DNA from: Marinovum algicola
GTDB lineage: Bacteria > Pseudomonadota > Alphaproteobacteria > Rhodobacterales > Rhodobacteraceae
Length of the DNA: 64,000 nucleotides
NCBI RefSeq assembly: GCF_900109145.1
Contig: NZ_FNYY01000008.1
Span: 62,001 to 126,000 of the forward strand
Direction of reading: 5' to 3'
Shown here piece by piece: positions 1-27,154 of the stretch. Each line of letters starts with the position of its first letter. Within the stretch, counting starts at the first letter, position 1. The notes under the pieces were generated by a model. That model was not told where the DNA came from. It worked only from the letters and a program-made list of their open reading frames with translations, and ran no database searches. The position numbers and the translations under genes are program-made.

Positions 1-1
1 G

Positions 2-2610: not shown

Positions 2611-5080
2611 TCCAGGCGTTCATCGCGCCATAGTGCCCACCAATCGGTCCGCGCGGCACGGTCAGCCCGATCAGCAGCAGCCCGGCGGTAAAGCAGGTCA
2701 GATAGGCCAGCACCGATCCGCCGGTGACCAGCGGTGCAAAGATCAGCACCACGCCGATGATCACGTTCAGAAAGCGCGCCATCCGCACCACCGAGGCCAG
2801 CGAGGTCACCGACACGGTGAGCGCCAGCGCGCCGCAAATGTGCACGGCGGCGGCGACCGGGCTGTCCCAGGTCAGGTAGAGCGGCGACAGCATCAGCCAG
2901 AGCGCCACGCCAATCGAGGCCAGCAGCGACCACGGCAGGGTGATACCGCCGCTCAGCATATCGCGCAGGATCACGCCGGGCTTGCGCTCGAAAGCCTGCC
3001 GGTCGATCTCGCCGGTGCCCTCGTCGGTGTCGCCGGTAAAGAACACCAGCAACCAGGGCCGCCCGGCGCGGTGGCGGCGGATCAGGAATTGCACCGTGGC
3101 GACGATCTCGTCGATGGCATAGGGGATTTGCAGCAGCATCGCGGCGGCCGCGATCAGCGCCAGCGTCGAATAGGTGCCGATCACGATCGGCTGGATCACG
3201 ATAAAGAAGATCGATACCGCGCCCAGCGGCACGATCATCACGCCGAACAGCACCGTCAGCCAGGGCATGGTACGCCAGCGCCTCGCCGAGCCGATCACGC
3301 CGACGAGGATCTCGAGCGCATAGGTCAGCGCGCCGAGGCCGGCGTCGGGCACCGGCCAGGCCTCGGAGACCTCCGAGGTGATGATCTGCTCGGTGCCGTT
3401 CTTGTCGGGCAGGGTTCCGTCAAAGAACGGCTCCCAGACGCCATCAATGCTTTCGAGCTGATAGGCCGTCAGGTAGCGCGAGATCAGCAGGCCGACGACG
3501 GCCAGCAGGATCACCGGCAGCCGCTGAAACCAGTCCGAGGGCGAATAATCCCAGCCCTTGGGGATCACCGGCCCGGTCTGGGCGGCGGCAGGCGAGACGC
3601 CGGGCGCGGGCGGCAGGCCAAGCGCAAAGCCCACCGCCAGCATGCCGGTGAGCGTTGCATTGACATAGGCCGCCCCGTTTTCGGCCCAGAAGATCAGCGG
3701 CGCAAACATGATCCAGCAGCCTACGGCCGCGGCGGCAAACCGCGCGTGCGGCAATTGCCACGACATCGACAGCAGCGCGCAAAGGCTCAGCGCCAGCCCG
3801 GCCAGCACGTCGCTCCAGGCCAGCCAGCTTTCGCCGTAGCCCAGCAGCGGCGGCGAGGTCAGCAGCCAAAGCCCCAGGCCGAAATTCGCCCAATGCGCCC
3901 AAAGGCTGTCGTGGTGGCGGGCACGGTATTCGCGTTCATGTGTGGCGCGCAGGTCTTCGGCCTCGGCATTGGCCTCTTCGGCCGAGCGCAGCCAGACCGG
4001 CGGCGTGATGCCATTGGCCTTGTACCAGCCCATCGGATCGTCCTGGAGCGCGGCCACGATATGGCGCAGCCCGTCGCGGATGCGGTGTTTCGGCTCCCAG
4101 TCCAGCAGCTCCTTGGCCTTGGAGATGTCGAGCGCGTAGTGATCCGACGACAGCTCGATCATGAAAGGCCGGATGAAAGGCTTCTCGCCTTCGTCGAGGG
4201 CATCGGGGATCGGCTCTTCCGCCGCCACCTCGGCCCGGGCGGCCACCCGGGCCACCGGCGCCGGGACGCGCAGGGTCTGCCAATCCTCCTCGCCGTGGAT
4301 CAGCTGGCCGAGTTCCTCTTGCAGCTTGGCATAGCTCATCGCATCCGGCTCGCCCGCCAGCACAACTTCGAGGCCCTCGATCCGGTCGCGCCGGTCGATC
4401 GCGCTGGCAAAGAGCTCCAGCATGTCCTCGAGGTGGATAAACGCCTGCCCGGCTTGCAGATCGCCGGAATAGACATGCGATTTCAGATCCCGTTCATAGA
4501 TCCGCGCGATTTGCTGGCTGAGCGTCGGCACCGCCGTCTTGTCATCATAAAGCCCGGCCATGTGCAAAAGCAGCACCGACATCTCCGGGTTGGTCCTGGG
4601 CGCGAGTTCGCGGATCACATCTTCGGTTTCGGCCTTGGATTTCGGATAGGCCCAGCCCGGTGCCAGCGGCGTGTCCTCGTTGATGCGCTCGCCGGGGTGG
4701 CCGGGCCGGTGCACCAGCATGGTGCCGGCATAGATGAAATGCGCCACATCCAGACCTTCGAGCCCCTTGAGAAGGTTGCGCGTGCCCTCGACGTTGACCC
4801 TGTCGTACATCGGGCTCTCGCGGCCGGAAAAGTCGAAATAGGCGGCGAGGTGGATCACCGCCGCCAGCGTGCCGCCGCTGGCCTCGCGCACCTGATCGAG
4901 CGCATGGGCAACCGAAGACTCATCTGTGATGTCGAGGCCGAAGATACGCCCGTCTTCGGCATTCTCCGGCAGGTCGACGCCAAGCACGGTGTAGCTGGCG
5001 GAAAGTTTCTCGCTGAGGGCGCGGCCGATGCGGCCCGCAGCACCGGTGATCAGAACTGTCGGTTTGTCTTGCGCTGTCAC
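2603..5080 (-). CDS. NAD-dependent epimerase fused to SPW and VKOR-like membrane domains
   Basis: 825 residues with two distinct halves. Residues 1 to about 330 are an extended short-chain dehydrogenase/epimerase: TGAAGRIG nucleotide loop at 12-19 and a catalytic YPKSK. The C-terminal half is membrane: an SPW-like segment (LLTSPPLLGYGESWLAWSD), a vitamin-K-epoxide-reductase-like four-helix unit (YLTAYQLESIDGVWEPFF ... SDVS-like entry ... PWLTVLFGVMIVPLG), then a second SPW-like pair (LMLSPLYLTWDSP). In active relatives, as I recall them, the fourth VKOR helix carries WCTLC. Here residues 637-641 read YSTLA, so both redox cysteines are missing. Start is GTG. A sugar or lipid-linked substrate at the membrane is possible, but no substrate is evident. 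Confidence 0.8.
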   Translation of the reverse strand: MTAQDKPTVLITGAAGRIGRALSEKLSASYTVLGVDLPENAEDGRIFGLDITDESSVAHALDQVREASGGTLAAVIHLAAYFDFSGRESPMYDRVNVEGTRNLLKGLEGLDVAHFIYAGTMLVHRPGHPGERINEDTPLAPGWAYPKSKAETEDVIRELAPRTNPEMSVLLLHMAGLYDDKTAVPTLSQQIARIYERDLKSHVYSGDLQAGQAFIHLEDMLELFASAIDRRDRIEGLEVVLAGEPDAMSYAKLQEELGQLIHGEEDWQTLRVPAPVARVAARAEVAAEEPIPDALDEGEKPFIRPFMIELSSDHYALDISKAKELLDWEPKHRIRDGLRHIVAALQDDPMGWYKANGITPPVWLRSAEEANAEAEDLRATHEREYRARHHDSLWAHWANFGLGLWLLTSPPLLGYGESWLAWSDVLAGLALSLCALLSMSWQLPHARFAAAAVGCWIMFAPLIFWAENGAAYVNATLTGMLAVGFALGLPPAPGVSPAAAQTGPVIPKGWDYSPSDWFQRLPVILLAVVGLLISRYLTAYQLESIDGVWEPFFDGTLPDKNGTEQIITSEVSEAWPVPDAGLGALTYALEILVGVIGSARRWRTMPWLTVLFGVMIVPLGAVSIFFIVIQPIVIGTYSTLALIAAAAMLLQIPYAIDEIVATVQFLIRRHRAGRPWLLVFFTGDTDEGTGEIDRQAFERKPGVILRDMLSGGITLPWSLLASIGVALWLMLSPLYLTWDSPVAAAVHICGALALTVSVTSLASVVRMARFLNVIIGVVLIFAPLVTGGSVLAYLTCFTAGLLLIGLTVPRGPIGGHYGAMNAWIR

Positions 5081-5208
5081 GTGTCACCCCTTGTCTCACT
5101 GGTTTAGCCGGCAGTTTTGGCCGCGTGCCCAAAGCCGCCGGGGCACGCGCCTCTCGGGGTCCAACGCGAAGCCCGGCGCGCAGTTCCCGCCGACCGCCAC
5201 GACACCAG

Positions 5209-5234
5209 GGAACCGGCGCGGCGCGCGGCGCGTT
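5209..5234 (+). promoter_or_regulatory. GGAAC-N17-CGTT, EcfG-type promoter
   Basis: GGAAC at 5209-5213 and CGTT at 5231-5234 with a 17-base spacer match the published general-stress consensus of alphaproteobacterial EcfG sigma factors. It lies 22 bases upstream of the small membrane gene at 5257. Confidence 0.65.
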
Positions 5235-5256
5235 GGCCCGGTGAAAGGAGAGTGCC

Positions 5257-5355
5257 ATGGACAGTCTGATGCTGATTTCAACGATCCTGACGGTCGCGCT
5301 CTTGACCGGCGCCGTCACGGTTCCGGCCGCCGTGCGCCAGTCCGGCCGCAAGTAA
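5257..5355 (+). CDS. 32-residue single-helix membrane peptide
   Basis: A short gene starting at ATG 5257, seven bases after the strong ribosome-binding site GAAAGGAG (5242-5249). The product is 32 residues: a hydrophobic helix (LMLISTILTVALLTGAV) followed by a basic tail ending in RQSGRK, the layout of a single-pass inner-membrane peptide. I do not recognise a family. Its promoter matches the EcfG consensus, and the persulfide-dioxygenase-like gene follows 122 bases later, possibly co-transcribed. Support comes from the RBS, promoter and hydrophobicity rather than homology. Confidence 0.6.
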   Translation: MDSLMLISTILTVALLTGAVTVPAAVRQSGRK

Positions 5356-5477
5356 GACCGCCCGAGTGAAGATCGCCGGGAGACCACACCCGGAGAGCGC
5401 CACGGCAAAGGCAGGCCGCCGTGCGTCGGTCTCCGGGTTCCCTGTGTTCCAGCAACCCCGAGATTTCAGGAGGCCAC

Positions 5478-6377
5478 ATGACCTTTCAACACAAGATCAG
5501 CGCATCGCGCGGCAAGGGAAGCCCCGAGGTGATCGGCTTTCGTGAGCCCGACACCGGCAGTTGCCAATACATCTGCGTCGATCCTGCCACCGGCGCGGCC
5601 GCCGCAATCGACATTGTGCAGGAGTTCGATCCGGCAAACGCCAGCACACGTTTCGACAGCGCCGAATGGGTGCTGGCACAGGTCAAGGAGCGCGGCCTCG
5701 CGCTGGACTGGGTGCTCGACACCCATCCGCATGCCGATCACTTCATGGCGTCGCACTGGCTCGGAAACCGGACCGGCGGCACCACCGCGATCGGCGACAA
5801 GGTGCATGATGTCGCCGACATTTGGGCCGAGCTCTACAACCTGCGCGACGCCTTTCACCCCGAACGGGATTTCGGCCGGCTGTTCGCCGATGGCGAGCGG
5901 TTCAAGCTGGGCGAGCTCGAGGGGCGGGTGCTGCTGTCGACCGGCCATACCGCCGGCTCGGTCAGCTACGTGATCGGCGATGCGATCTTTGCGCATGACA
6001 CCTTCATGCAGCCCGACGCCGGCACGGCACGCTGCGATTTTCCCGGCGGATCGGCCTCGGATCTCTATGACACGCTGATGCGCCTGCTGGATCATCCCGA
6101 CGATCACCGCATCTTCATCGGCCATGATTATGGCACCGACACGCGTGATGACCCGGCCTGGGAAAGCACGGTCCGGGAGCAGCGCGACAGCAACATCCAC
6201 ATCGGCGGCGGGGTGTCGAAGGCCGCGTTCATCGAGACCCGCGAAGCGCGCGATGCCACGCTCGACCTGCCCGATCGCATGTTGCATGCGCTTCAGGTCA
6301 ACCTGCGCGGTGGCCGACTTCCCAAGGCGGAAGACGACGGCAACGCCTATTTCAAGATTCCCGCAAACCGCCTTTGA
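5478..6377 (+). CDS. MBL-fold hydrolase, persulfide-dioxygenase-like (ETHE1/Blh type)
   Basis: 299 residues of the metallo-beta-lactamase fold. The metal motif is T-H83-P-H85-A-D87-H88, followed by STGHTAGSVSYV and a final GHDY. The segment GTARCDFPGGSA is typical of the ETHE1/Blh persulfide dioxygenase branch, which oxidises glutathione persulfide to sulfite. ATG 5478 is chosen because CAGGAGG lies just upstream (5467-5473). The next gene, 16 bases on, encodes a rhodanese, the usual sulfur-transfer partner, so a sulfide or persulfide detoxification pair is likely. No BigR-like repressor is adjacent, in contrast to classic bigR-blh loci. A glyoxalase-II-like activity is the main alternative. 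Confidence 0.85.
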   Translation: MTFQHKISASRGKGSPEVIGFREPDTGSCQYICVDPATGAAAAIDIVQEFDPANASTRFDSAEWVLAQVKERGLALDWVLDTHPHADHFMASHWLGNRTGGTTAIGDKVHDVADIWAELYNLRDAFHPERDFGRLFADGERFKLGELEGRVLLSTGHTAGSVSYVIGDAIFAHDTFMQPDAGTARCDFPGGSASDLYDTLMRLLDHPDDHRIFIGHDYGTDTRDDPAWESTVREQRDSNIHIGGGVSKAAFIETREARDATLDLPDRMLHALQVNLRGGRLPKAEDDGNAYFKIPANRL

Positions 6378-6393
6378 GCCACAGGAGACCCGG

Positions 6394-6753
6394 ATGTCAG
6401 AGATCGAGAACTGGAGCCCGCAAAGGGTGTTCGAGGCCCTCAATGCAGGCGAGATCGTGCTGATCGATGTTCGGACCCCGGCCGAATACATAATGGAACA
6501 TGTCGAGGGCGCGCTGCTGATGCCGATGCCCTTCTTTCGCGCCGATGCCCTACCGACGCAGGACGGCAAGCGGATCGTGCTGCATTGCGGCTCGGGCAAG
6601 CGCAGCGGCAAGGTCGGCCAGGACGCGATGGCGTCGGGGATCACCCCGCTGGCCCATATGGAAGGCGGCTTCGGTGCCTGGAAATCGGCCGGTCTGCCGC
6701 ATGTCGGAACCGATCTGGCCACGGGCGCGCCCAAGCGGATGGGCGGGGCCTGA
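6394..6753 (+). CDS. single-domain rhodanese sulfurtransferase
   Basis: 119 residues, one rhodanese domain. LIDVRTPAEY sits near residue 25, and the active-site loop HCGSGKRS contains the persulfide-carrying Cys65. The family transfers sulfane sulfur between thiols, thiosulfate or cyanide. ATG 6394 follows CAGGAGAC by a few bases. It lies directly downstream of the persulfide-dioxygenase-like gene with a 16-base gap. The two probably act together on cytoplasmic persulfides, a function inferred from context and known blh/rhodanese pairs. Confidence 0.88.
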   Translation: MSEIENWSPQRVFEALNAGEIVLIDVRTPAEYIMEHVEGALLMPMPFFRADALPTQDGKRIVLHCGSGKRSGKVGQDAMASGITPLAHMEGGFGAWKSAGLPHVGTDLATGAPKRMGGA

Positions 6754-6788
6754 CGCCTCGCGCCGGTGCGGGCCCGGCCCGAGAATGA

Positions 6789-6813
6789 GGAACCTTTCGG
6801 GCCGGGCCGCGTT
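6789..6813 (+). promoter_or_regulatory. GGAAC-N16-CGTT, EcfG-type promoter
   Basis: GGAAC at 6789-6793 and CGTT at 6810-6813, spacer 16. It lies 47 bases upstream of the 22-residue membrane peptide gene at 6861 and has the same form as the site before the other tiny membrane gene. Confidence 0.65.
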
Positions 6814-6860
6814 GGAATTGAAGAGGGTCGAAGGGCCGAAGCCTCAAGGGAGACAGTCAA

Positions 6861-6929
6861 GTGAACAATATCATTTATATCGTGGGTCTGGTCGTCATCG
6901 TTCTGGCTATCGTGGGTTTCGTTCTCTGA
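6861..6929 (+). CDS. 22-residue hydrophobic membrane peptide
   Basis: A GTG-initiated frame following AAGGGAGA (6847-6854). The product is only 22 residues, beginning MNNIIYIVGLVVIV and ending in VGFVL, almost entirely one transmembrane helix. Similar very short peptides starting NNIIYIVGLVVIV are, to my recollection, annotated in other alphaproteobacteria, usually as hypothetical. The upstream EcfG-type promoter supports real expression. Likely a stress-induced single-span inner-membrane peptide of unknown role. Confidence 0.6.
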   Translation: MNNIIYIVGLVVIVLAIVGFVL

Positions 6930-6971
6930 ACCAGACGATGTGACGATGACGCAGGGGCGCGGGCCATCCCC

Positions 6972-7069
6972 GGCGCCATCAGGTGGCCAGGGGTCTGGCG
7001 CCTGAGCGTCATCCCACGTGTTGTTTGCAAGACCGCGTCAGACCTGCGCCGCCGCACCGTAGCGGCGGC
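6972..7069 (+). repeat. two hairpins between the small peptide gene and the sigma gene
   Basis: An inverted repeat GGCGCCA (6972-6978) / TGGCGCC (6996-7002) and a perfect 8-bp hairpin GCCGCCGC (7048-7055) / GCGGCGGC (7062-7069) with a 6-base loop. The first may end upstream transcription. The second lies 37 bases before the sigma-factor ATG and may fold in its leader. No U-tract follows either. Confidence 0.45.
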
Positions 7070-7106
7070 AAGTGGCGGAGGGCTTGTGGTGTGTTTGAGG
7101 AAGGTC

Positions 7107-7613
7107 ATGGGAGCCAAGGAAAACATTGTCGAGATGATCCCGGCTCTGCGGGCCTATGCCTGGGTCCTGACGCGTCGCCACGAAGACGTGGATGACCTGG
7201 TGCAGGACACGCTGGTCAAGGCGATCGACAATTTCGACAAATACCAGTCCGGCACCAATCTGCGGGCATGGCTGATGACCATCATGCGCAACACCTTTCT
7301 CAACAACGTCAAGCGGGCGGCGCGGATGCAGACCGGCGCCGAAACCTGCATCTCGTCCTCGGTCTCTGTGCCGGCCACCCAGGAATGGACGGTGCGCGGC
7401 CACGAGATGATGGACAAGGTCGCCGAATTGCCGACCCATTACCGCGAAACGCTGATCCTAGTGGTGATGCTGGGCGAGAGTTACGAAACGGCGGCGCGGA
7501 TCTGCGAGGTCGAGGTCGGCACCATCAAGAGCCGGGTCAACCGCGCGCGGCGGATGCTGATCGCGGCGCTCGAAGGCAATGAACCGGAAGGGGTCAAACC
7601 GCCCAGCGACTGA
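7107..7613 (+). CDS. ECF RNA polymerase sigma factor, EcfG-like
   Basis: 168 residues with sigma region 2 (IPALRAYAWVLTRR, DDLVQDTLVKAIDNF, GTNLRAWLMTIMRN) and sigma region 4 (ELPTHYRETLILV ... GTIKSRVNRARRML). The GTNLRAWL-TI-RN block and the overall pattern resemble EcfG (ECF15) sigma factors, which drive the alphaproteobacterial general stress response from GGAAC-N16/17-CGTT promoters. ATG 7107 is preferred to an in-frame GTG at 7086 because GAGGAAGG lies just before it. Converging from the other side is a NepR-like gene. No PhyR or sensor kinase is in the window, and no GGAAC site precedes this gene, so autoregulation is not evident. Assignment to the EcfG group rather than a neighbouring ECF group is inferred. 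Confidence 0.85.
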   Translation: MGAKENIVEMIPALRAYAWVLTRRHEDVDDLVQDTLVKAIDNFDKYQSGTNLRAWLMTIMRNTFLNNVKRAARMQTGAETCISSSVSVPATQEWTVRGHEMMDKVAELPTHYRETLILVVMLGESYETAARICEVEVGTIKSRVNRARRMLIAALEGNEPEGVKPPSD

Positions 7614-7618
7614 CGGCG

Positions 7619-7783
7619 TCAGTCCGAGCTGTCGGCCTCGCGGTCGCGCAACAGCTTTTGCAGCTCGCGCGCCAGTTCGACCAGACGCTCGGGCGTGTTC
7701 TCGGTCTGCAATTCCGCCAGTTTGCGACGCAATTCGGCGTCAAGCGCGGCCTCGGGCCCGGGCAGGTCTTCGCGTCGTGTCAT
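7619..7783 (-). CDS. 54-residue NepR-like anti-sigma factor candidate
   Basis: A short gene, ATG at 7783, with AAAGGG as a possible RBS. The product is 54 mostly helical, charged residues. Residues 18-19 are LR and 31-34 are PERL, then VELARELQ. NepR proteins show LR, eleven residues, then P-[DE]-R-[FL] and a leucine-rich helix; the same spacing appears here, including an acidic residue before the proline motif. NepR holds EcfG inactive until PhyR sequesters it. The gene converges on the EcfG-like sigma gene with only 5 bases between stops, an unusual orientation since nepR normally sits beside and co-directional with ecfG. The call rests on motif spacing and context. Confidence 0.6.
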   Translation of the reverse strand: MTRREDLPGPEAALDAELRRKLAELQTENTPERLVELARELQKLLRDREADSSD

Positions 7784-7866
7784 CTTGGGCCCTTTGGCGG
7801 TGGCGAGGGTCGCAGGTTGGGGTCTGCTAGCCTCGCCACCGCGTGCTTGTCAATTCACGGTATCTG

Positions 7867-8472
7867 TCAGTCGATCACGGCACAGGCCAGCCGTGCGCCG
7901 GCATCGCCGGAGGGCTGGCTCCGATAATCGTCGGCGCCGGCATGCAACATCAGCGCCCGCCCCGAGATATTGTCACGGTCGCCGCCGAGGATCACATAGG
8001 TATTCAGCACCTCGGCCCGCAGCGTGCCGTCGGCCGCGACCCATTGATTGGGCATGTCGCCGGAATGCGGCGCCTCTTCGGCCAGGAAACCGTGATTGGT
8101 CTCGGACACCGAGAAATGGCCGCCGGCGGATTTGAAGCCGTCTTCGGGATCGCAATCGCCGGTTTCATGGATGTGAAAGCCATGCCAGGTCTCTGGCGGC
8201 AAATCCCGCAGGTCGAGCGAGATCAGCACGCCATAGGAGGTGCCGGTCAAGGTCGCGGTGCCGATGTCCTTGCCCTCGGCCGAAATGAAAGAGACCTCTT
8301 GCTCGGCCGGGTCGGCCTCCTGGGCCGCCACCGGAATCGCCTGGCTGACGCAGAGTGCGCCAGCCAGGAGGAGCCCGCCTACGAAGGGCACAGCACGGGC
8401 GGGCTCACCTGCCGCCGCCGCCAAGGGACCGGCGGCGGTCGGATGGGAAAAATCGGTTGGATCAAGGCGCAT
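7867..8472 (-). CDS. sodC: Cu/Zn superoxide dismutase
   Basis: Secreted copper-zinc superoxide dismutase. Metal ligands are visible in HGFHIHETGDCD, in SAGGHFS and in the late GRALMLHAGADDY segment, and the chain ends with the conserved SGDAGARLACAVI. The protein removes periplasmic superoxide. A hydrophobic export signal (VGGLLLAGALCVSQAIPVAA) starts about 30 residues in. The true start may therefore be the internal GTG giving VPFVGG rather than the ATG at 8472. The ATG overlaps the upstream BON-protein gene by 11 bases, so both are probably one transcript from the EcfG-type promoter at 9108-9084. Confidence 0.9.
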   Translation of the reverse strand: MRLDPTDFSHPTAAGPLAAAAGEPARAVPFVGGLLLAGALCVSQAIPVAAQEADPAEQEVSFISAEGKDIGTATLTGTSYGVLISLDLRDLPPETWHGFHIHETGDCDPEDGFKSAGGHFSVSETNHGFLAEEAPHSGDMPNQWVAADGTLRAEVLNTYVILGGDRDNISGRALMLHAGADDYRSQPSGDAGARLACAVID

Positions 8473-9013
8473 GGTTCTGAATTCTCAGGTTGTTCTGGAC
8501 ATGGGTGACGCCGGAGACGCTGTCGCAGCAATCCTCGGCAAAACGCTTCGCCCGACGGGTGTCGACGGTGCCGCTCAACGTGACTTCGCGGTCGGCCACC
8601 GAAACCTCGATCTCCGAGGCGTCGACCCGGGGGTGATCGGTCAGCCGGTCGTTCACATCCTCTTCGATGCGGGCGTCAGACCGGACATAGCCCCTGGGGC
8701 CGCGACCGCGATGGTCGGCCTCGCGCCGGGCCTCGGCCGCGTCATCGCCGAACCACGAGGCGATCTCGTCGCCGGCCCTGTCCATGAAGTCGCGTTCTTG
8801 CCGGTCATCGGGCCGGCCGGAAAAGCGGCGCATCGATGGCATGTAGGGGGCGGCATAGAGTTCGGGGGCCATGGGGCCCATGCCGTACCACGGCGGCACC
8901 CACCAGCCCGGATCGCCCCGGCGATAGGGATCGCGATCCTCGCGGCGGGAATGGCTGCGTCGATACAGCTCCTCTCGCGCTTCCTGCTCGGTCATGTCGT
9001 CGTGTCTGGCCAT
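8462..9013 (-). CDS. SWFGD-motif / BON-domain stress protein
   Basis: 183 residues. A charged N-terminal region with a proline/tryptophan patch (WWVPPWYGM) leads to SWFGD at 86-90, then the linker GRGPRGYVRSDARIEEDV, and a BON domain at about 112-178 (LTDHPRVDASEIEVSV, VTLSGTV, HVQNNLRI). BON domains bind phospholipid and occur in OsmY-like proteins that protect the envelope. No clear signal peptide is seen, so location is uncertain. It heads a two-gene unit with sodC and has a GGAAC-N16-TGTT promoter about 70 bases upstream, fitting a general-stress role. Confidence 0.8.
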   Translation of the reverse strand: MARHDDMTEQEAREELYRRSHSRREDRDPYRRGDPGWWVPPWYGMGPMAPELYAAPYMPSMRRFSGRPDDRQERDFMDRAGDEIASWFGDDAAEARREADHRGRGPRGYVRSDARIEEDVNDRLTDHPRVDASEIEVSVADREVTLSGTVDTRRAKRFAEDCCDSVSGVTHVQNNLRIQNHAP

Positions 9014-9083
9014 AACTTCGCTCCTTTCGGCGTTTCATCCCGGCTTCGGGGCCGCAGTCCCCGACCGGGACGGGTTTCAAGGA

Positions 9084-9108
9084 AACATGTGGCGCTGGTC
9101 TTTGTTCC
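9084..9108 (-). promoter_or_regulatory. GGAAC-N16-TGTT, EcfG-type promoter
   Basis: On the minus strand GGAAC (9108-9104), 16 bases, TGTT (9087-9084). It precedes the BON-domain/sodC pair starting at 9013. The first base of the -10 differs from the consensus C, which is the weakest position. Confidence 0.5.
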
Positions 9109-9125
9109 TGACCGGGCCGAGAATG

Positions 9126-9473
9126 TCAGAGCGGGATCAGCACAAGGGCGACGATCAGCCCGACCAGCAACACCAGCCCCACGATCATCGCCGGCAGCCA
9201 GTGCTGGTGGGGCGACTGCCGTCGACGCCGGGACGGGCGGTCGGTCTGCCCCTCGGCGCGGCCCAGCTCCTGCGCCTGCGCCCGGCGCAGCTGCGCGCGG
9301 GTCGGCGGGTGGCCGGCCGCCTCGTCATCCGTGCCAAGCGGCGCGGCGGCGGGGTCGGGAAAGGCCACCTTGTCTCCGGCGCCGCCACGGTCGATCTTGT
9401 TGCGCAGGCGTGCGGCGCCCGCCCCCTCCGATCGCTTCGCCTTGTCGCTCTGCTTGTCGTCGGGGGATGTCAT
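9126..9473 (-). CDS. 115-residue tail-anchored membrane protein with DPAAAPLGTDDEAAG motif
   Basis: A hydrophilic, charged N-terminal 90 residues followed by one C-terminal transmembrane helix (MIVGLVLLVGLIVALVLIPL). The central GDKVAFPDPAAAPLGTDDEAAG region, shown here in shortened form as DKV-FPDPAAAPLGTD, is a motif I associate with uncharacterised alphaproteobacterial proteins. Function is unknown. The tail helix predicts an inner-membrane protein with its bulk in the cytoplasm. ATG 9473 sits about 30 bases from a perfect EcfG-type promoter, so stress induction is likely. Confidence 0.7.
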   Translation of the reverse strand: MTSPDDKQSDKAKRSEGAGAARLRNKIDRGGAGDKVAFPDPAAAPLGTDDEAAGHPPTRAQLRRAQAQELGRAEGQTDRPSRRRRQSPHQHWLPAMIVGLVLLVGLIVALVLIPL

Positions 9474-9510
9474 GCTGTGCCTTTATCGTCGGTTGGGGGT
9501 CTGTTGACCC

Positions 9511-9535
9511 AACGTTCCAGTGCTTTGAATGTTCC
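9511..9535 (-). promoter_or_regulatory. GGAAC-N16-CGTT, EcfG-type promoter
   Basis: Minus strand GGAAC (9535-9531), 16 bases, CGTT (9514-9511), a perfect match. It serves the tail-anchored membrane gene starting at 9473. It is back to back with the plus-strand site at 9548, only 12 bases away. Confidence 0.68.
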
Positions 9536-9547
9536 GTCAGGCGGCAC

Positions 9548-9573
9548 GGAACCGCCATGGGGCCGGGCGGGTT
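9548..9573 (+). promoter_or_regulatory. GGAAC-N17-GGTT, EcfG-type promoter
   Basis: GGAAC at 9548-9552 and GGTT at 9570-9573, spacer 17. It is upstream of the AI-2E permease gene at 9662 and divergent from the site at 9535. Confidence 0.5.
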
Positions 9574-9661
9574 TGTTACGCAACATGCCTCATTTCGCCC
9601 TTCACTTCCCGCCCCGATGCGGTGCCGCCGCACCGGAAACTCGCCAGCCGGAGAGCCGCGC

Positions 9662-10711
9662 ATGGCACTGAAATCGCGCCGCAGCGGGCCGGCGCAGGCC
9701 TTTCTCGTGGGCATCGGCCTGCTGGCGGTGATCGTCCTGGCCCTGGCGCTCTGGCAGGTCCGGTGGATCGTGTTGCTGGGTTTCGGCGCAATCCTCGCGG
9801 CCATATTGCTCAACGCCGCCGCATGGTGCCTTCGCCGCGTGCTGCCGATGGGCCAGGTGCCGGCCGTCATCCTCAGCGTGACCTTGCTGATCCTCGTCGG
9901 GGTCGCGGCCTTCATCCTGCTCGGCGCGCAGATCGTTTCGGGGCTGCTCGAGATCCAAACGCAGATCCCCGAGGTGATCCGCACGATCGACAGCTGGATC
10001 GACCTCGGCGACGTCGAATCCTGGATCGGTGCGCGGATGGACGAGCCGATGCAGATGGGGTCGGTCTTTTCCGGCCTGACTAGCGCGACATCGATCCTGA
10101 TTGCCCTGGGCACAGGGATCGCGCTGGTGTTTGTCGGTGGCGTCTATCTAGCGCTGAACCCGGAAGGATATCGCGACGGCGCCCTGGCCCTGGCCCCCGC
10201 CCATCTGCGGCCGCGCCTGCGACAGACGATGGCGGCCTTGGTGCGCGCGCTGCGAGCCTGGCTGGTCGGGCAACTGGTGGCGATGTTCGCAGTTTTCGGG
10301 ATGACGACCGTCGGGCTCTGGCTGCTGGGGGTGTCGACGCCGATCGCGTTGGGCGCGATTGCCGGCCTGCTGGAATTCGTGCCCTATGTCGGCCCGCTGA
10401 CCAGCGCGGTGCCCGCGGTGGCGGTGGGCATCATGGACGGTCCGACAACGGCGCTCTGGGTGATCCTGCTTTATTTCGCAGTGCAGCAGATCGAAGGCGC
10501 ATTGCTGATCCCGCTGATCCAGCGCGAGGCCGTCGACCTGCCGCCGGCCATCACCGTGTTCTCGATCGTGGGGCTCGGCGTGCTGCTTGGCCCACTCGGG
10601 GTGATCCTGGCGGCGCCGCTCACCGTGGTGGGTGTGGTGCTCGCGCGCGAGCTCTGGTGCCCCTGGATGGCCGCGCGCGGGGCAGAGGAGGCGTCCGAGG
10701 CGGCGGAGTGA
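9662..10711 (+). CDS. AI-2E/PerM family membrane protein
   Basis: 349 residues and about eight transmembrane helices, typical of the AI-2E exporter superfamily. Conserved family stretches near the C-terminus are LLEFVPYVGPLTSAVPAV and VQQIEGALLIPLIQREAVDLPPAITV, followed by GPLGVILAAPLTVV. Family members have been tied to autoinducer-2 export and to Na+/H+ antiport; the substrate here is unknown. ATG 9662 is chosen for the CCGGAGAG ribosome-binding site seven bases upstream. The reading frame stays open far upstream through other genes, but that part is not coding. A second paralogue lies at 39546. An EcfG-type promoter precedes this one. Confidence 0.85.
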   Translation: MALKSRRSGPAQAFLVGIGLLAVIVLALALWQVRWIVLLGFGAILAAILLNAAAWCLRRVLPMGQVPAVILSVTLLILVGVAAFILLGAQIVSGLLEIQTQIPEVIRTIDSWIDLGDVESWIGARMDEPMQMGSVFSGLTSATSILIALGTGIALVFVGGVYLALNPEGYRDGALALAPAHLRPRLRQTMAALVRALRAWLVGQLVAMFAVFGMTTVGLWLLGVSTPIALGAIAGLLEFVPYVGPLTSAVPAVAVGIMDGPTTALWVILLYFAVQQIEGALLIPLIQREAVDLPPAITVFSIVGLGVLLGPLGVILAAPLTVVGVVLARELWCPWMAARGAEEASEAAE

Positions 10712-10714
10712 GCC

Positions 10715-13159
10715 TCAGTCCTCCTCTGCCCAGGCGTTGAGCTTGTCGATCACGCCATCGCTCAGCGATTGCAGATCGTCCTGAAGCGCCACGGCGGGGC
10801 AGGGCCGGTCCATGCGCCGCGCCATGTCGCCCAGCGAAAAGGCTTTCGCGCTTTTCAACTCTGCCAGCTCGTCCCATGTCACCGGAACGGCCACGGGCGC
10901 GCCCTGGCGCGCGCGCAGCGAATAGGGGGCGATGGCGGTCGCGCCGCGTTCGTTGCGCAGCCAGTCGATGAAGATCCGGCCCTTGCGCTTGGATTTCGAC
11001 ATCGTGGCGGTGTAGCGGTCGGGCGCCTTTTCGGCCATCACATGGGCAAAGGTCTTGGCAAAGAGCTTGACCGTGTCCCAGCCCCGGCTGCGTCGCAACG
11101 GCAGCCAGACATGCACGCCCTTGCCACCGGTGACGATTGCCCCCGAGGCCAGCCCGAGCCGATGCAGCCGGTCGCGCACCTCGAAGGCGGCGTCGCGCAC
11201 CGCGTCCCAGCCCAGCCCCTCGTCGGGGTCGAGGTCGAAGACCAGCCGGTCGGGCCGGTCAAGCCGGTCGGTGCGCGCGCCCCAGACGTGGAATTCCACC
11301 GTGCCCATCTGGGCCGCGGCAACAAGGCTCTCGGGGCGGGTGGCGTAAAGGTAATCCTCGGCCTTGCCGTCGCTTTCCTCGATCTCGATGCGCGCCACCG
11401 CCGGTGGCATCGAGCCGCCGTGTTTCTGAAAGAAACAGGCGTCCTCCAGCCCGCCGGGGCAGCGGTAGAGCGACAGCGGCCGGTGCGACATCAGCGCCAT
11501 CATCCGCTTGCCGACGCGGGCGTAATGCCGCGCGATGTCGAGCTTGCTGCATCCGGCCTCGGGAAAGACCTGCCGGTCGGGGCTGGTGATGGTCTGGTTC
11601 AGGACAATTGTCTCCACGTCACTCTCCTTTCCGGTCTCGAGCTGCACCTCGTCGGCCACCTTGTCCTCTCGCAGGCCCAGATAGCTGCCGTGACGGACAA
11701 GGCCGTCGCCGGTGAACTCGGTGAATTCGACCTCGGCTACCAGCGCCGGGGTGACCCATTTGGCGGCCCGGGCGACCTCGCTCGGCACGTCGTCAAAGGG
11801 GGGCGTCTTGCGCGGCTTCATGGCCTGTTCCAGCCGCTCGAAATCCCGTTCGGCAAAACCGGTGCCGACGCGGCCGCGATAGCGCAGCCTGCCGTCCTGG
11901 TTGGAGCCGATTAGCAGAGAGGCAAAGGGCCGGCCGGGCTTGTCCGAAGGGCTGTAGCCGCCGATCACGAATTCCTGCCGGCGCGAACATTTGATCTTGC
12001 GCCAGGCCTTGGTGCGGCTGCCACAATAGGGCGCGTCGCGGCGTTTCGAGACAATGCCCTCGGCGCCACCTTCGCAAGCCTGCCGGAACACCTCGGGGCC
12101 ATGGCCGACGACGTGTTCGCTCATCCTCAGCGCGCCGTGTTTCGGCAGGCCCGAGAACAGTTCGGCCAGCGCCTCGCGGCGTTCGTCCTGCGGCCGGCCG
12201 GTCAGATCCGTGCCATCGCGCGACAGCAGGTCGAAGGCGATGAAGACCAGCGGCCCGCCTTCCGACAACGCCTGTTGCAGCGAGGAAAAGGCAGAGCCTT
12301 CGATCCGCGCCGCCATCACCTCGCCGTCGATCAGCGCCGAGTCGCAGGGCAGGGGGCCAAAGGCCTCGGCGAGCGCGCCGTAGCGGTCGGTCCAGTCCTT
12401 GCCGGAGCGGGTGAAGAACCGGGTGCCGCCCTTGCCCAACGCGGCCAGCGTGCGATAGCCGTCGAGCTTGATTTCGTGCAGCCAGTCGTCGCCCTCGGGC
12501 GCGGCCTTGTAGAGCGTGGCGAGCTGCACATCGCGAAATTTCGGTGCCTTGGCCGTGCGTTTGCGCGCGGCCGGGCGTTCGACGCCATCGGCGATGTCCT
12601 CCATGCTGCGTCCGGTGGTGACGGAGGTCGTGAAGTCGTGGGTCAGCGCGTCGGGGTCGTCTTCGGCCAGATCGTCGCGCTCCTTGATCAGCAGCCAGTT
12701 CTCGCGGTTTTCCTTGCCGCGCATCCGCACCAGAGCCCAGCCGCCCTGCATCCGTTCGCCCTCAAGGGTGAATTTCAGTTTGCCCGCTTCGAGCCCCGCA
12801 TCCACGTCGCCCTCCGGCGTCCAAGTGCCGGTGTCCCAGAGCATGACGGTGCCGCCGCCATATTCGCCCTTTGGAATGGTGCCCTCGAAACCGGCGTAGT
12901 CCAGCGGGTGATCCTCGGTGCGGACCGCAAGGCGTTTTTCGCGCGGGTCGGGGCTCGGCCCCCTGGTCACCGCCCAGCTCAGCAGCACGCCCTGCCATTC
13001 CAGCCGGAAATCATAATGCAGCCGGCTGGCGTCATGTTTCTGCACCACGAAGCCGGGCTTGCCATCGGCGCGGCCGGCATCGCCGCCCCTGGGTTCGCTG
13101 GTGCGGGAGAAATCGCGTTTGCGGATGTAATCGGAGAGTTTGTCAGGGGTCTCGGCCAT
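10715..13159 (-). CDS. ligD: ATP-dependent DNA ligase D (phosphoesterase-ligase-polymerase)
   Basis: 814 residues with all three LigD modules. The 3'-phosphoesterase spans about 1-190, with His42, His48, Asp50 and His84 at the same numbers as in Pseudomonas aeruginosa LigD. The ligase spans about 210-510, with nucleotidyl lysine 231 in EIKLDGYR. The primase-polymerase runs from about 530, with FDLDPDEGLGW holding metal-binding aspartates. LigD trims, fills and seals double-strand breaks in bacterial non-homologous end joining with Ku. The ATG at 13159 abuts the Ku stop with no gap, so the two are one operon. All key residues are present, so the enzyme should be active. Confidence 0.97.
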   Translation of the reverse strand: MAETPDKLSDYIRKRDFSRTSEPRGGDAGRADGKPGFVVQKHDASRLHYDFRLEWQGVLLSWAVTRGPSPDPREKRLAVRTEDHPLDYAGFEGTIPKGEYGGGTVMLWDTGTWTPEGDVDAGLEAGKLKFTLEGERMQGGWALVRMRGKENRENWLLIKERDDLAEDDPDALTHDFTTSVTTGRSMEDIADGVERPAARKRTAKAPKFRDVQLATLYKAAPEGDDWLHEIKLDGYRTLAALGKGGTRFFTRSGKDWTDRYGALAEAFGPLPCDSALIDGEVMAARIEGSAFSSLQQALSEGGPLVFIAFDLLSRDGTDLTGRPQDERREALAELFSGLPKHGALRMSEHVVGHGPEVFRQACEGGAEGIVSKRRDAPYCGSRTKAWRKIKCSRRQEFVIGGYSPSDKPGRPFASLLIGSNQDGRLRYRGRVGTGFAERDFERLEQAMKPRKTPPFDDVPSEVARAAKWVTPALVAEVEFTEFTGDGLVRHGSYLGLREDKVADEVQLETGKESDVETIVLNQTITSPDRQVFPEAGCSKLDIARHYARVGKRMMALMSHRPLSLYRCPGGLEDACFFQKHGGSMPPAVARIEIEESDGKAEDYLYATRPESLVAAAQMGTVEFHVWGARTDRLDRPDRLVFDLDPDEGLGWDAVRDAAFEVRDRLHRLGLASGAIVTGGKGVHVWLPLRRSRGWDTVKLFAKTFAHVMAEKAPDRYTATMSKSKRKGRIFIDWLRNERGATAIAPYSLRARQGAPVAVPVTWDELAELKSAKAFSLGDMARRMDRPCPAVALQDDLQSLSDGVIDKLNAWAEED

Positions 13160-13984
13160 CTAGGATGCTTTCTTCTTGCGGCTGCGTCCTTTCTTTTCGG
13201 CAGAGTCGAGGCTTTCTTTCAGCGCCGCCATCAAGTCGACGACATTCTCGCCCGGGCTTTCCGCCTCGTCGCCGGTGCTGACCCGCGGCGTCTTCTTGTT
13301 CTTCTGCTTGGCCTCCAGCAGATCGCGCAGCGCCTCGGCGTAGCTGTCGGAATAGCTCGAGGCGTCGAACGGCGCGGTCTTGCGGTCGATCAGCGAGGTC
13401 GCGACCTCGAGCAGCTCCTTGTCGGCCTTGGCATCCTCGATCTGGCCGAACATCGGCTCGGCCTCGCGAAGCTCATCGGCATAATGCAGCGTTTCCAACA
13501 GGATGCCGTCGCCACAGGGGCGCACGGCGGCGAGGTATTCCTTGCCGCGCATGGTCAGCTGGCCCAGCCCGGCCTTGCCGCTCTGGCGCAGCGCGTCGCG
13601 GATCACGCGATAGGCCTCTTGCGCCAGTTCGTCCGAGGGGACGAGGTAATAGGGCTTGTCGAAATAGATCGGCGGGATCTCGGCCATCTCGACGAATTGC
13701 ACCAGTTCGAGCGTTTTCTTGGTCTCAAGCTTGATCGCGTCGAGCTCGTCCGGCTCGATCAGGATGTATTCATCGTCATCCACCTCATAGCCCTTGACGA
13801 TCTCGTCCCGGTCCACCGGGCCGATGCCCGGCACCGATTTTTCATAACGGATGCGCTTGCCCGAGGGTTTGTGGATCTGGCGAAACGAGATCTTCGCGGC
13901 GCTGCGGGTGGCGGAATAAAGCTCGACCGGGATCGAGACGAGCGACAGGCGAAGCTGGCCTTTCCAGAGCGCGCGGGGGGCCAT
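13160..13984 (-). CDS. ku: Ku-family DNA end-binding protein
   Basis: 274 residues, the usual size of bacterial Ku. It starts MAPRALWKGQLRLSLVSIPVELYSA, shown here by its key parts WKG-LRLSLVSIPV-LY, and has the Ku core (KYEVDDD-like GYEVDDDEYILIEPDELDAI, YYLVPS). The end is a lysine-rich tail (EKKGRSRKKKAS) that in relatives aids DNA binding and LigD recruitment. The homodimer encircles broken DNA ends. The gene is first of a Ku-LigD operon. A GGAAC-N16-GGTT promoter lies about 75 bases upstream, in line with reports of stress-sigma control of ku genes in rhizobia. Confidence 0.96.
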   Translation of the reverse strand: MAPRALWKGQLRLSLVSIPVELYSATRSAAKISFRQIHKPSGKRIRYEKSVPGIGPVDRDEIVKGYEVDDDEYILIEPDELDAIKLETKKTLELVQFVEMAEIPPIYFDKPYYLVPSDELAQEAYRVIRDALRQSGKAGLGQLTMRGKEYLAAVRPCGDGILLETLHYADELREAEPMFGQIEDAKADKELLEVATSLIDRKTAPFDASSYSDSYAEALRDLLEAKQKNKKTPRVSTGDEAESPGENVVDLMAALKESLDSAEKKGRSRKKKAS

Positions 13985-14057
13985 GATTCACGGCCACCTT
14001 GCGGGGGCGGGGCTGGAAGAATGCGCTTGGGTCATGGGCCGGCTCCTTTTTCTGTCC

Positions 14058-14082
14058 AACCGCGCGCCGCCGCGATTGTTCC
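14058..14082 (-). promoter_or_regulatory. GGAAC-N16-GGTT, EcfG-type promoter for ku-ligD
   Basis: Minus strand GGAAC (14082-14078), 16 bases, GGTT (14061-14058), about 75 bases upstream of the Ku start. It matches the general-stress consensus except for the weak first base of the -10. Confidence 0.58.
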
Positions 14083-14128
14083 GAAAGGCCCGGCCGGCGC
14101 CCGTCGTCATGGCGGCGCCGCCTTTTCA

Positions 14129-14158
14129 TTGACATGAAGCATGATTCATGTCTCATAT
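14129..14158 (+). promoter_or_regulatory. housekeeping promoter overlapped by TetR operator palindrome
   Basis: TTGACA at 14129-14134 is a perfect -35. With an 18-base spacer, TCATAT (14153-14158) can serve as -10. Inside lies the perfect inverted repeat GACATGAA-N6-TTCATGTC (14131-14152). A closely related palindrome precedes the tetR gene at 22532. Repressor binding here would block the transporter operon. The right half-site contains a GATTC (GANTC) methylation target. Confidence 0.65.
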
Positions 14159-14191
14159 TTGAGCATTGAAATTCCTTGGGAGGAGTTCGGA

Positions 14192-15367
14192 ATGAAACGT
14201 TTGTTCACGGCCGGTGTCGCGGCGCTGCTCTGTGCCGGCGCCGCCTCGGCGGAAATTCGCATTGCCCATGTCTATGGCAAGACCGGCCCTTTCGAGGCCT
14301 ATGCCAAACAAAGCCACGATGGCCTGATGCTGGGGCTGGAATATGCCACCGACGGCAGTATGGAGATCGACGGCGAGCCGATCGTGGTGATCGAGAAGGA
14401 CACCCAGCTGAAACCCGATCTCGGCAAGGCGCTGCTGGCCGAGGCCTATGGTGACGACGACGCCCATATCGCAGTGGGGCCGGTCAGCTCGGGCGTCGCG
14501 CTGGCGATGCTGCCGGTGGCCGAGGAATATGAACGCCTGCTGATCGTCGAGCCGGCGGTGGCCGATTCGATCACCGGCGAGAACTGGAACCGCTATGTCT
14601 TTCGCACCGGGCGCAATTCGTCCCAGGATGCGATCTCCAACGCCGTCGCCCTGGGCGGCGAAGGGGTGACGATTGCCACGCTGGCGCAGGATTACGCCTT
14701 TGGCCGCGACGGCATTGCCGCCTTCCGCGAGGCGCTGGACGGCACCGGCGCCAGCATCGCGCATGAGGAATACGTGCCCACGGACACCACCGATTTCACC
14801 GCTGCGGCCGAGCGGATCTTTACCGCGATGAAGGACATCGAGGGCGAGAAGCGGCTGTTCATCATCTGGGCCGGCGGCGGCAACCCGATGAGCAAGATCC
14901 AGGCGATGGACCCGTCGCGTTTCGGCATCGAGATCGCTACCGGCGGCAATATCCTCGCCGCGCTCACCGCCTACAAGGAACTTCCCGGCATGGAGGGGGC
15001 GACCTATTATTACTACGAGATCCCCCAGAACCCGGTGAACGACTGGCTGGTCAAGGAGCATATGGCCCGGTTCGACAGCCCGCCGGATTTCTTCACGGCC
15101 GGCGGCATGGCGGCAGGCATCGCCGTGGTCGAGGCGATCCGCAAGGCCGGAGGCGCCGAGGACACCGAGGCGCTGATCGCGGCGATGGAAGGCATGGAAT
15201 TTGAGACGCCCAAGGGCATGATGCGGTTCCGGCCCGAGGATCATCAGGCGCTGCAATCCATGTACCACTTCCGCACCGAGGTGCAGGAGGACAAGGATTA
15301 CGGCGTGCCGGTGCTCGTGCGCGAGATCGGCATCGACGAAATGGACATTCCGGTCCGCAATCAGTGA
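14192..15367 (+). CDS. LIV-type ABC transporter substrate-binding protein
   Basis: 391 residues. It has a clear signal peptide (MKRLFTAGVAALLCAGAASA) and then a type I periplasmic-binding fold of the leucine/isoleucine/valine family. IAHVYGKTGPFEAYAKQ is the usual ligand-site start and VGPVSSGVALAMLPVAEE follows. The SBP captures a substrate in the periplasm for the permeases and ATPases encoded next. ATG 14192 follows GGGAGGAG. The linked acyl-CoA ligase and hydratases argue for an organic acid or aromatic/alicyclic acid as ligand rather than an amino acid; that is inference. The operator palindrome sits just upstream. Confidence 0.92.
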   Translation: MKRLFTAGVAALLCAGAASAEIRIAHVYGKTGPFEAYAKQSHDGLMLGLEYATDGSMEIDGEPIVVIEKDTQLKPDLGKALLAEAYGDDDAHIAVGPVSSGVALAMLPVAEEYERLLIVEPAVADSITGENWNRYVFRTGRNSSQDAISNAVALGGEGVTIATLAQDYAFGRDGIAAFREALDGTGASIAHEEYVPTDTTDFTAAAERIFTAMKDIEGEKRLFIIWAGGGNPMSKIQAMDPSRFGIEIATGGNILAALTAYKELPGMEGATYYYYEIPQNPVNDWLVKEHMARFDSPPDFFTAGGMAAGIAVVEAIRKAGGAEDTEALIAAMEGMEFETPKGMMRFRPEDHQALQSMYHFRTEVQEDKDYGVPVLVREIGIDEMDIPVRNQ

Positions 15368-15375
15368 CACCTTGG

Positions 15376-15434
15376 GGCGGGTGGGTCGCAAACCCACCCG
15401 CCGCCCTCCGATGCAGGGTGGGTTGCAATCCACC
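15376..15434. repeat. two palindromic REP-like units
   Basis: A perfect 11-bp hairpin GGCGGGTGGGT (15376-15386) / ACCCACCCGCC (15392-15402), then GGTGG (15417-15421) / CCACC (15430-15434) around GTTGCAAT. Both are built on GGGTGGGT-TGCAA-CCACCC and resemble repeats scattered in Roseobacter-type genomes. They lie between the binding-protein gene and the ATPase gene and could reduce downstream transcription or protect the upstream mRNA end. Confidence 0.6.
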
Positions 15435-15442
15435 GTTCCGCC

Positions 15443-27026: not shown

Positions 27027-27154
27027 GATGGGCTCGGGCCTCGTGGCTGGGCTGACGGGACAGGGCGGAAAGGGGCTGGCTCCGGCTTATCCGATTGGCC
27101 AACGCGGCGGAAGGGGGCGGGTTCCTGTGGCAATGAGCGCCGGTCGGCAAGCAC

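Follow-up and report, generated by a model that had tools for sequence, protein, structure and literature searches.

The stretch 5163–14082 of the window (the whole 64,000 nucleotides of DNA analysed, C24:62001-126000) makes up the right-hand half of a general stress response (GSR) island of 34 kb. Within it, the accessory sigma factor EcfG2 is predicted to be paired with a dedicated anti-sigma factor, a NepR-like protein encoded by a 54-codon reading frame at 7619–7783 on the minus strand. As an explanation of the whole locus, this reading is given a probability of roughly 0.6. The features of the stretch are as follows.

2603–5080, minus strand: 825-aa protein with epimerase, SPW and VKOR domains (Pfam), the likely target of the 5163 site
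5163–5187, minus strand: GSR-type site GGAAC-N16-NGTT, 82 bp before the GTG of the 2603–5080 gene
5209–5234, plus strand: GSR-type promoter site, 22 bp before the 32-codon ORF
5257–5355, plus strand: 32-codon membrane-type ORF (sequence)
6789–6813, plus strand: GSR-type promoter site, 47 bp before the 22-codon ORF and 293 bp before ecfG2
6861–6929, plus strand: 22-codon membrane-type ORF with GTG start; a similar ORF lies in the left half of the island (L002 3992)
7107–7613, plus strand: ecfG2, accessory EcfG-like sigma factor (Pfam, identity, clade)
7619–7783, minus strand: 54-codon NepR-like ORF, proposed EcfG2 anti-sigma factor (profile, linkage, co-occurrence)
7867–8472, minus strand: sodC, Cu/Zn superoxide dismutase (Pfam Sod_Cu)
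8462–9013, minus strand: BON-domain protein (Pfam BON), first gene behind the 9084 site
9084–9108, minus strand: GSR-type promoter site, 70 bp before the BON gene
9126–9473, minus strand: 115-aa protein with a C-terminal hydrophobic segment (sequence)
9511–9535, minus strand: GSR-type promoter site, 37 bp before the gene of the 115-aa protein
9548–9573, plus strand: GSR-type promoter site, 88 bp before the AI-2E permease gene
9662–10711, plus strand: AI-2E family transporter (Pfam)
10715–13159, minus strand: ligD (Pfam LigD)
13160–13984, minus strand: ku (Pfam Ku)
14058–14082, minus strand: GSR-type promoter site, 73 bp before ku

Just outside the window, the island's left half (L002) contains phyR, two nepR genes, ecfG1 and a PhyK-like kinase gene, all assigned by homology. 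Together with their EcfG-type sites these genes constitute a GSR core, located about 14–17 kb left of ecfG2. An EcfG-type stress region had been proposed from the sequence alone and is confirmed, but that proposal lacked both the canonical core and the NepR-like gene beside 7107. Because the core with EcfG1 lies to the left, ecfG2 at 7107 is a second paralog and not the master regulator. Its EcfG-like nature is upheld by matches to Sigma70_r2, Sigma70_r4_2 and PhyR_sigma2 above the Pfam cut-offs. The protein has the ECF-type architecture of EcfG/ECF15, with sigma regions 2 and 4 only, and is 42% identical to EcfG1 of the same genome. The NCBIfam models that fit EcfG2 best are the top-ranking ones for EcfG1 too, although the scores stay under the cut-offs. 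In the tree, EcfG2 belongs to a clade separate from the EcfG1 sequences (support 98/95).

In 25 of 32 related loci a GSR-type site is found no more than 120 bp upstream of ecfG2 (one for the control motif). These 32 were kept from 62 returned loci; the 30 that were dropped (L043-L070, L072, L073) are 31–40% identical and mostly from Bacteroidota. The ecfG2 of the window has no adjacent consensus site, the nearest being 293 bp upstream, behind the 22-codon ORF. EcfG2 is classified, from sequence comparison, as an accessory paralog that is probably itself under GSR control. Presumably it reads promoters of the GGAAC-N16/17-NGTT type, as EcfG1 would.

The immediate neighbor of ecfG2 is the convergent 54-codon ORF. 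In favor of its being a coding sequence, third codon positions vary most in nine of ten homolog pairs, which overlap in their members and include one over-extended ORF (L039). With an iterated model of the family, 21 of 33 loci, the eight seed loci counted, have a match in the interval from −1.6 to +2.2 kb around ecfG2. The other 12 have no match in that interval, and in some of them one lies 4–10 kb away. A model of the seeds only matches 13 non-seed loci at E<0.01, nine of them within 2 kb of ecfG2, and at this threshold gives no non-NepR match in 40 NepR-centred loci. Four extra EcfG2 loci are evenly divided, two having a NepR-type ORF within 1 kb and two having none. In a scan of 120 genomes, the six best profile matches come from six of the seven EcfG2 genomes; the seventh (G185) has no match. 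Without the two genomes used in building the profile, the co-occurrence is 4 of 5 EcfG2 genomes against 0 of 113 others. Cereibacter and Rhodobacter species in the compared set possess the pair as well.

Linkage and co-occurrence bear on the possibility that this is an ordinary GSR locus whose accessory EcfG lacks a dedicated anti-sigma factor, with the 54-aa NepR relative acting elsewhere, for example by titrating PhyR. PhyR titration has been proposed for NepR paralogs of Methylobacterium extorquens, two of which bind PhyR with no EcfG found to bind them (available part of PMC4814048), and the matches 4–10 kb from ecfG2 would fit such a role. On the other hand, the family is linked to ecfG2 and not to phyR, the seed-only model gives no non-NepR match at E<0.01 in the 40 NepR-centred loci, and it co-occurs with EcfG2 genomes. 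This alternative is unlikely, although it carries some weight.

The assignment to the NepR type is based on profile similarity. A profile built from eight seeds without NepR matches 32 of 42 canonical NepR proteins at E<10 and 11 of 42 at E<0.01. Alignment of the 54-aa family with NepR by hhalign gives 94.8% and an E-value of 5e-8. Pfam NepR is matched by 5 of 14 family members at E<=1 (best 1.3e-4) and is the commonest Pfam family among them. The protein of the window gives no match to Pfam NepR even at E 10; since the curated model is not matched, it is referred to as NepR-like and not as NepR. Furthermore, its length is within the 50–70 residues of NepR proteins, and the predicted structure consists of two helices (residues 10–27 and 31–52, pLDDT 86) with a proline at the break. 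A Foldseek search with this two-helix model returned nothing at E<=0.001, and no NepR is among the best 50 matches listed.

Alternatively, the family could be a small helical GSR target protein, not a NepR, with an E-x-x-P-E-R motif that resembles NepR by chance. In keeping with this, RpoD scores no worse than NepR when PDB sequences are searched: an RpoD chain (E 0.012) and a pantoate kinase outrank NepR chains 5uxx and 4qic (both at E about 0.1). The profile also matches long RpoD-sized frames in about 100 genomes, and the missing Pfam match of the window's own protein points in the same direction. The hhalign result, the Pfam matches of other members and the recovery of NepR by the iterated profile in 40 of 40 NepR-centred loci speak against a chance resemblance, which is improbable. 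Most likely, the 54-aa protein is a divergent NepR-type protein that would act on EcfG2.

The promoter sites of the island were examined by a motif scan. The sequence-only reading had listed six GGAAC-N16/17-NGTT sites upstream of gene starts. All six are present, with site-to-start gaps of 22, 47, 70, 37, 88 and 73 bp. Its coordinates denote the 5' end on each site's own strand, so that 9108, 9535 and 14082 are the high ends of 9084–9108, 9511–9535 and 14058–14082. A seventh site in the same stretch (5163–5187, minus strand) was absent from that list. The seven sites are positioned 22–88 bp ahead of gene starts and presumably act as promoters of the GSR regulon. The identities of the genes named as targets hold up likewise, with Pfam matches to Sod_Cu, BON, AI-2E transporter, LigD and Ku; the two tiny membrane genes are the membrane-type ORFs of 32 and 22 codons. 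For the supposed tail-anchored protein of 115 residues, the C-terminal hydrophobic segment is present, but neither Pfam (at E 0.001) nor NCBIfam (at E 1) assigns the protein to a family.

The window contains nine motif matches (2.03 expected); none of 100 shuffles reached this number, the maximum being eight. Across 5.40 Mb the genome has 164 matches against 213 for the reversed-pattern control, so the genome as a whole is not enriched in the motif and single sites elsewhere mean little. The island at C24:42083-76082 holds 20 of the 164. The site frequency in the rest of the genome predicts 0.24 sites per 8.9 kb, compared with seven observed, and the local density seen in the sequence-only reading thus withstands the genome-wide comparison. 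Each of the 20 sites lies 8–88 bp ahead of a plausible start. These distances use hand-set starts (automatic calls make antisense errors in GC-rich DNA), two of which are uncertain: that of a 79-aa membrane protein is one base off (codon TGG) and that of ExoD is doubtful. Random occurrence of a short, degenerate motif in a GC-rich genome would agree with the low genome count but can practically be dismissed, as uniform placement (2000 trials) puts at most nine sites in any 34 kb, the 32 EcfG2 loci hold 216 sites against 31 for the control, and the ecfG2 upstream regions give 25 of 32 against one. As to border features of a mobile genomic island, a tRNA scan of the window found none and a repeat search of positions 1–20000 found no long close repeats. 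The Rfam search and the scans for sigma-70 promoters and terminators added nothing.

Clustering of such sites around the sigma gene had been called unusual, a view that does not survive comparison with relatives. Twenty NepR-centred regions of Rhodobacteraceae (from 56 other matching genomes) hold 141 sites against 16 for the control, and 20 from other families of the class (from 27 matching genomes) hold 88 against 19; two of the 40 regions are shortened by contig ends. The patchy distribution of the GSR in Rhodobacterales is borne out. NepR is found at E<=0.001 in 57 of 120 Rhodobacteraceae genomes, and within the genus two of four genomes, the present one included in the four, have no EcfG-like match at E<=1e-10. 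Symmetric GGAAC-N17/18-GTTCC sites were considered as selected bidirectional promoters. They occur 21 times in the 32 loci, compared with 0–2 at other spacings. This count is estimated to be about that expected from a chance CC after GTT once sites exist, and therefore no selection is claimed.

In the partner switch of Alphaproteobacteria, a kinase phosphorylates PhyR, phosphorylated PhyR takes NepR from EcfG, and EcfG uses GGAAC-N16/17-NGTT promoters. By homology, the PhyK-like kinase would phosphorylate PhyR and PhyR would pull NepR1 off EcfG1. The freed EcfG1 would transcribe from GGAAC-N16/17-NGTT promoters, among them the seven sites between 5163 and 14082. EcfG2, probably under GSR control, would use the same kind of promoter, with the 54-aa NepR-like protein as its own off-switch, a divergent anti-sigma factor. 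Read-through from the BON-sodC promoter into the NepR-like ORF would close a negative feedback loop; a strong hairpin between sodC and this ORF makes the step doubtful.

For Rhodobacterales more widely it is conceivable, at a little below even odds, that EcfG2 and a divergent NepR-type anti-sigma factor form a second, semi-independent stress switch layered on PhyR-NepR-EcfG1. In that case EcfG2 activity would be set by a private inhibitor and not by NepR1, giving a graded or delayed output from shared GGAAC promoters, and something other than PhyR may serve as the inhibitor's antagonist.

Published work bears on how accessory EcfG sigma factors are restrained. According to the available part of PMC3892343, NepR reportedly does not bind the second EcfG of either Caulobacter or Sphingomonas, and Rhizobium etli has no anti-sigma gene near ecfG2, whereas here a NepR-like gene is linked to it. 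A dedicated anti-sigma factor, if confirmed, would explain how accessory copies are held back, and the linkage of a small gene to one EcfG clade brings their restraint within direct experimental reach. Additionally, many predicted GSR targets are packed into the island (Ku-LigD, SodC, envelope proteins).

The island resembles the PhyR-NepR-EcfG systems of Alphaproteobacteria in its complete core with an HWE/HisKA_2 kinase and in the GGAAC-N16/17-NGTT sites before core genes. Unlike the canonical arrangement, it has a further EcfG at a distance of about 15 kb, next to a divergent NepR-like gene, and 20 sites in 34 kb. In the portions of the following papers that were accessible, several counterparts are described. 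Ku, CsbD and PRC-barrel genes are among the apparent GSR targets of Sphingomonas or Sphingopyxis (PMC6599016, PMC7083833), as here. A comparable locus of the same family is RSP_1271-1274 of Rhodobacter sphaeroides, where kinase, EcfG, NepR-type protein and PhyR are encoded together near a Crp-Fnr gene. That 2018 study, by its own account the first analysis of PhyR in Rhodobacterales, does not, in its accessible text, take up the pairing of an EcfG2 with a NepR-like gene (PMC5830050); RSP_2681 may be the EcfG2 of this species, judging by map position only. The literature searched, largely outside subscription journals, contained nothing on an accessory EcfG of Rhodobacterales with a linked NepR-like gene. 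Caulobacter (SigU), R. etli (EcfG2) and Sphingopyxis (EcfG2) also have a second EcfG, separate from the core or next to it (PMC8103513, PMC3892343, PMC7083833), and the GSR-type site upstream of most EcfG2 relatives parallels SigU as a SigT target. The GSR and GSR' loci of Rubellimicrobium thermophilum likewise represent two sets of EcfG and regulators in one genome. There PhyR is duplicated too (PMC12148442), whereas the stretches examined here contain no second PhyR. More than one NepR-type protein per genome is known from Sinorhizobium (RsiA1/RsiA2) and M. extorquens (PMC4814048). Compared with these homologues, the 54-aa family is more divergent and is tied to one EcfG clade.

All six GGAAC-N16/17-NGTT sites that the sequence-only reading had placed in 8.9 kb around an EcfG-like sigma gene are present in the window (C24:62001-126000), and this 8.9-kb segment contains a seventh at 5163-5187 on the minus strand. 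Across the genome (5.40 Mb) this EcfG-type general stress response (GSR) pattern occurs 164 times and its reversed control 213 times, so single matches carry little weight. The genome-wide density scan proposed with that reading placed 20 of the 164 sites within 34 kb (C24:42083-76082); the maximum in 2000 uniform placements was 9 per 34 kb. All 20 have a plausible start codon 8-88 bp downstream (two of these starts are uncertain). Since locus L002 (C24:42001-62000, directly left of the window) carries 13 of the 20 sites together with the GSR core genes, a GSR island extends across the window's left edge, with its core just outside and the 8.9-kb region as its right half. The observation thus stands, enlarged to a 34-kb island.

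Regulatory genes of the island
L002 10022-10840, minus strand: PhyR
L002 10953-11129: NepR1
L002 11126-11680: EcfG1, the core sigma factor
L002 11677-13428: HisKA_2/HWE kinase (PhyK is the closest model, with a score below that model's cut-off)
L002 9397-9552: second NepR
Window 7107-7613, plus strand: ecfG2, the accessory sigma paralog
Window 7619-7783, minus strand: NepR-like ORF of 54 codons, between ecfG2 and sodC

Genes for CsbD, DUF308, DUF3618, PRC-barrel and ExoD proteins and other ORFs are also present in L002. The left-half genes occur in similar order in congener G261, with identities of 57-92% apart from weaker NepR matches. EcfG2 is absent from this congener, and two others have no EcfG-like match. 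Divergent overlapping sites (L002 10868-10900) separate the oppositely transcribed phyR and nepR1, and the same overlap is found in G261 (L122 19706 and 19713). Another site (L002 15158-15182) lies 27 bp ahead of a gene resembling, by eye, an acyl-CoA dehydrogenase, the first in a series of fatty-acid oxidation-type ORFs that lie between the island halves. Two similar hydrophobic peptides of 22 residues (window 6861-6929 and L002 3992-4060) each follow a GSR-type site by 45-47 bp; related ORFs in Cereibacter-type loci lack a site of this kind within 200 bp. Beyond the island, two further window sites (27101-27125, minus; 46537-46562, plus) lie 74 and 145 bp ahead of called genes. A second cluster, five sites in 7.4 kb, is located at G000 C18:72076-79443 (L003 10076-17443), near ORFs that by eye resemble an SDR oxidoreductase, glycosyltransferases and a GalU-type protein.

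The ecfG2 product has ECF regions 2 and 4 and a match to the PhyR sigma2 model, and it shares 42% identity with EcfG1 of the same genome. In a tree of 80 rows, including a few duplicates, Rhodobacterales-type EcfG2 forms a supported clade (32 rows, 98/95) separate from the EcfG1 rows. Among 120 Rhodobacteraceae genomes, 7 carry EcfG2 (identity at least 48%) and 57 carry NepR, the latter including all seven with EcfG2. Of 32 related loci, 25 have a site no more than 120 bp upstream of ecfG2 (1 with the control motif), which suggests that EcfG1 or EcfG2 itself controls the gene. This tie is weaker in the window, because the closest site is 293 bp upstream, beyond a 22-codon ORF; the single two-mismatch match in between is about the number expected by chance. 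The two sigma loci are ~15 kb apart in the island. In the six other EcfG2 genomes they are 1.7 Mb apart (G186) or on separate contigs, the meaning of which is limited by assembly gaps. In 32 EcfG2 loci (L013-L042, L071, L074), GGAAC-N17/18-GTTCC is nearly its own reverse complement and 21 sites read as promoters on both strands; this number is close to the chance rate once sites exist and gives no ground to claim selection.

Relatives of the 54-codon ORF were found by tblastn beside ecfG2 in other genera. A profile was built from eight ecfG2-linked seeds, none of them NepR; of 42 canonical NepR it matches 32 at E<10 and 11 at E<0.01. After iteration it recruits NepR from all 40 NepR-centred loci, and hhalign of the family against 19 NepR gives 94.8% (E 5e-8). 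Pfam NepR matches five of 14 family members and not the product of the window's own ORF. The profile also matches a segment of RpoD-sized frames in ~100 genomes, and the PDB chain 7ye1_F, which may reflect chance or sigma-like similarity; the RpoD identity follows from frame length and the PDB match. Third codon positions are the most divergent in nine of ten homolog pairs, which overlap in their members. The AlphaFold2 model predicts helices 10-27 and 31-52 (mean pLDDT 86) with a break at a conserved E-x-x-P; Foldseek with this model was uninformative. BON, sodC and the NepR-like ORF follow one another in one direction, as in L016 and, with a weaker ORF, in L013. Co-transcription is unproven owing to a strong hairpin without T-run in the sodC/NepR-like gap (7784-7866, minus strand; -34.6 kcal/mol, z -4.4).

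Of 33 ecfG2 loci (the seed loci among them), 21 have a match to the iterated model at -1.6 to +2.2 kb of the sigma gene. With seeds only (E<0.01), 13 non-seed loci are matched, in nine of them less than 2 kb from ecfG2. Side and orientation differ among loci, which argues for a functional tie to ecfG2. Across 120 genomes, the top six profile matches fall in six of the seven EcfG2 genomes; without two genomes that contributed to the profile, four of five EcfG2 genomes match and none of 113 others (Fisher 6.5e-7, threshold chosen post hoc from the list). The next match is a canonical NepR (3.4e-5); below it, to E 0.01, the list comprises canonical NepR positions, the recurring RpoD-sized-frame match and a few matches in other long frames. 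The EcfG2 genome G185 has no family-profile match. In G251 the family match is 14.5 kb from ecfG2, and a weak Pfam NepR match lies at 3.8 kb. Among four added, non-duplicate EcfG2 loci, NepR-type ORFs lie less than 1 kb from ecfG2 in L117 and L121, and the models find none in L118 and L119. In Cereibacter-type loci (L025, L026, L117) two NepR-type ORFs adjoin ecfG2, one nearer canonical NepR and one of the 54-residue kind.

In other alphaproteobacteria, passages of PMC5830050, PMC6599016 and PMC8103513 describe EcfG as freed of NepR by phosphorylated PhyR and as reading GGAAC...GTT promoters. By extension, EcfG1 would start the stress response, EcfG2 would amplify or extend it, and the NepR-like protein would restrain EcfG2. 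The main rival is that this protein titrates PhyR instead, as a passage of PMC4814048 suggests for NepR paralogs of M. extorquens. Restraint of EcfG2, if true, would explain how a second EcfG stays inactive despite not being bound by NepR, a lack of binding reported for Caulobacter and Sphingomonas in part of PMC3892343.

The interpretation given in the sequence-only reading is partly supported, the EcfG-like sigma gene included. Its view of the clustering as unusual does not hold, as the regulators are surrounded by an excess of sites elsewhere too: 598 kb of EcfG2-centred loci contain 216 against 31 for the control, 400 kb of NepR-centred regions from 20 Rhodobacteraceae contain 141 against 16, and 388 kb of such regions from 20 genomes belonging to other families of the class contain 88 against 19. 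GSR-type sites commonly cluster near their regulators, more strongly so in Rhodobacteraceae. With its two sigma loci, the M. algicola island is at the dense end of the range. Stress islands of this kind are already known, and this one is a rich example; what is new is the variant formed by the EcfG2-linked NepR-like family, which merits a bench test.
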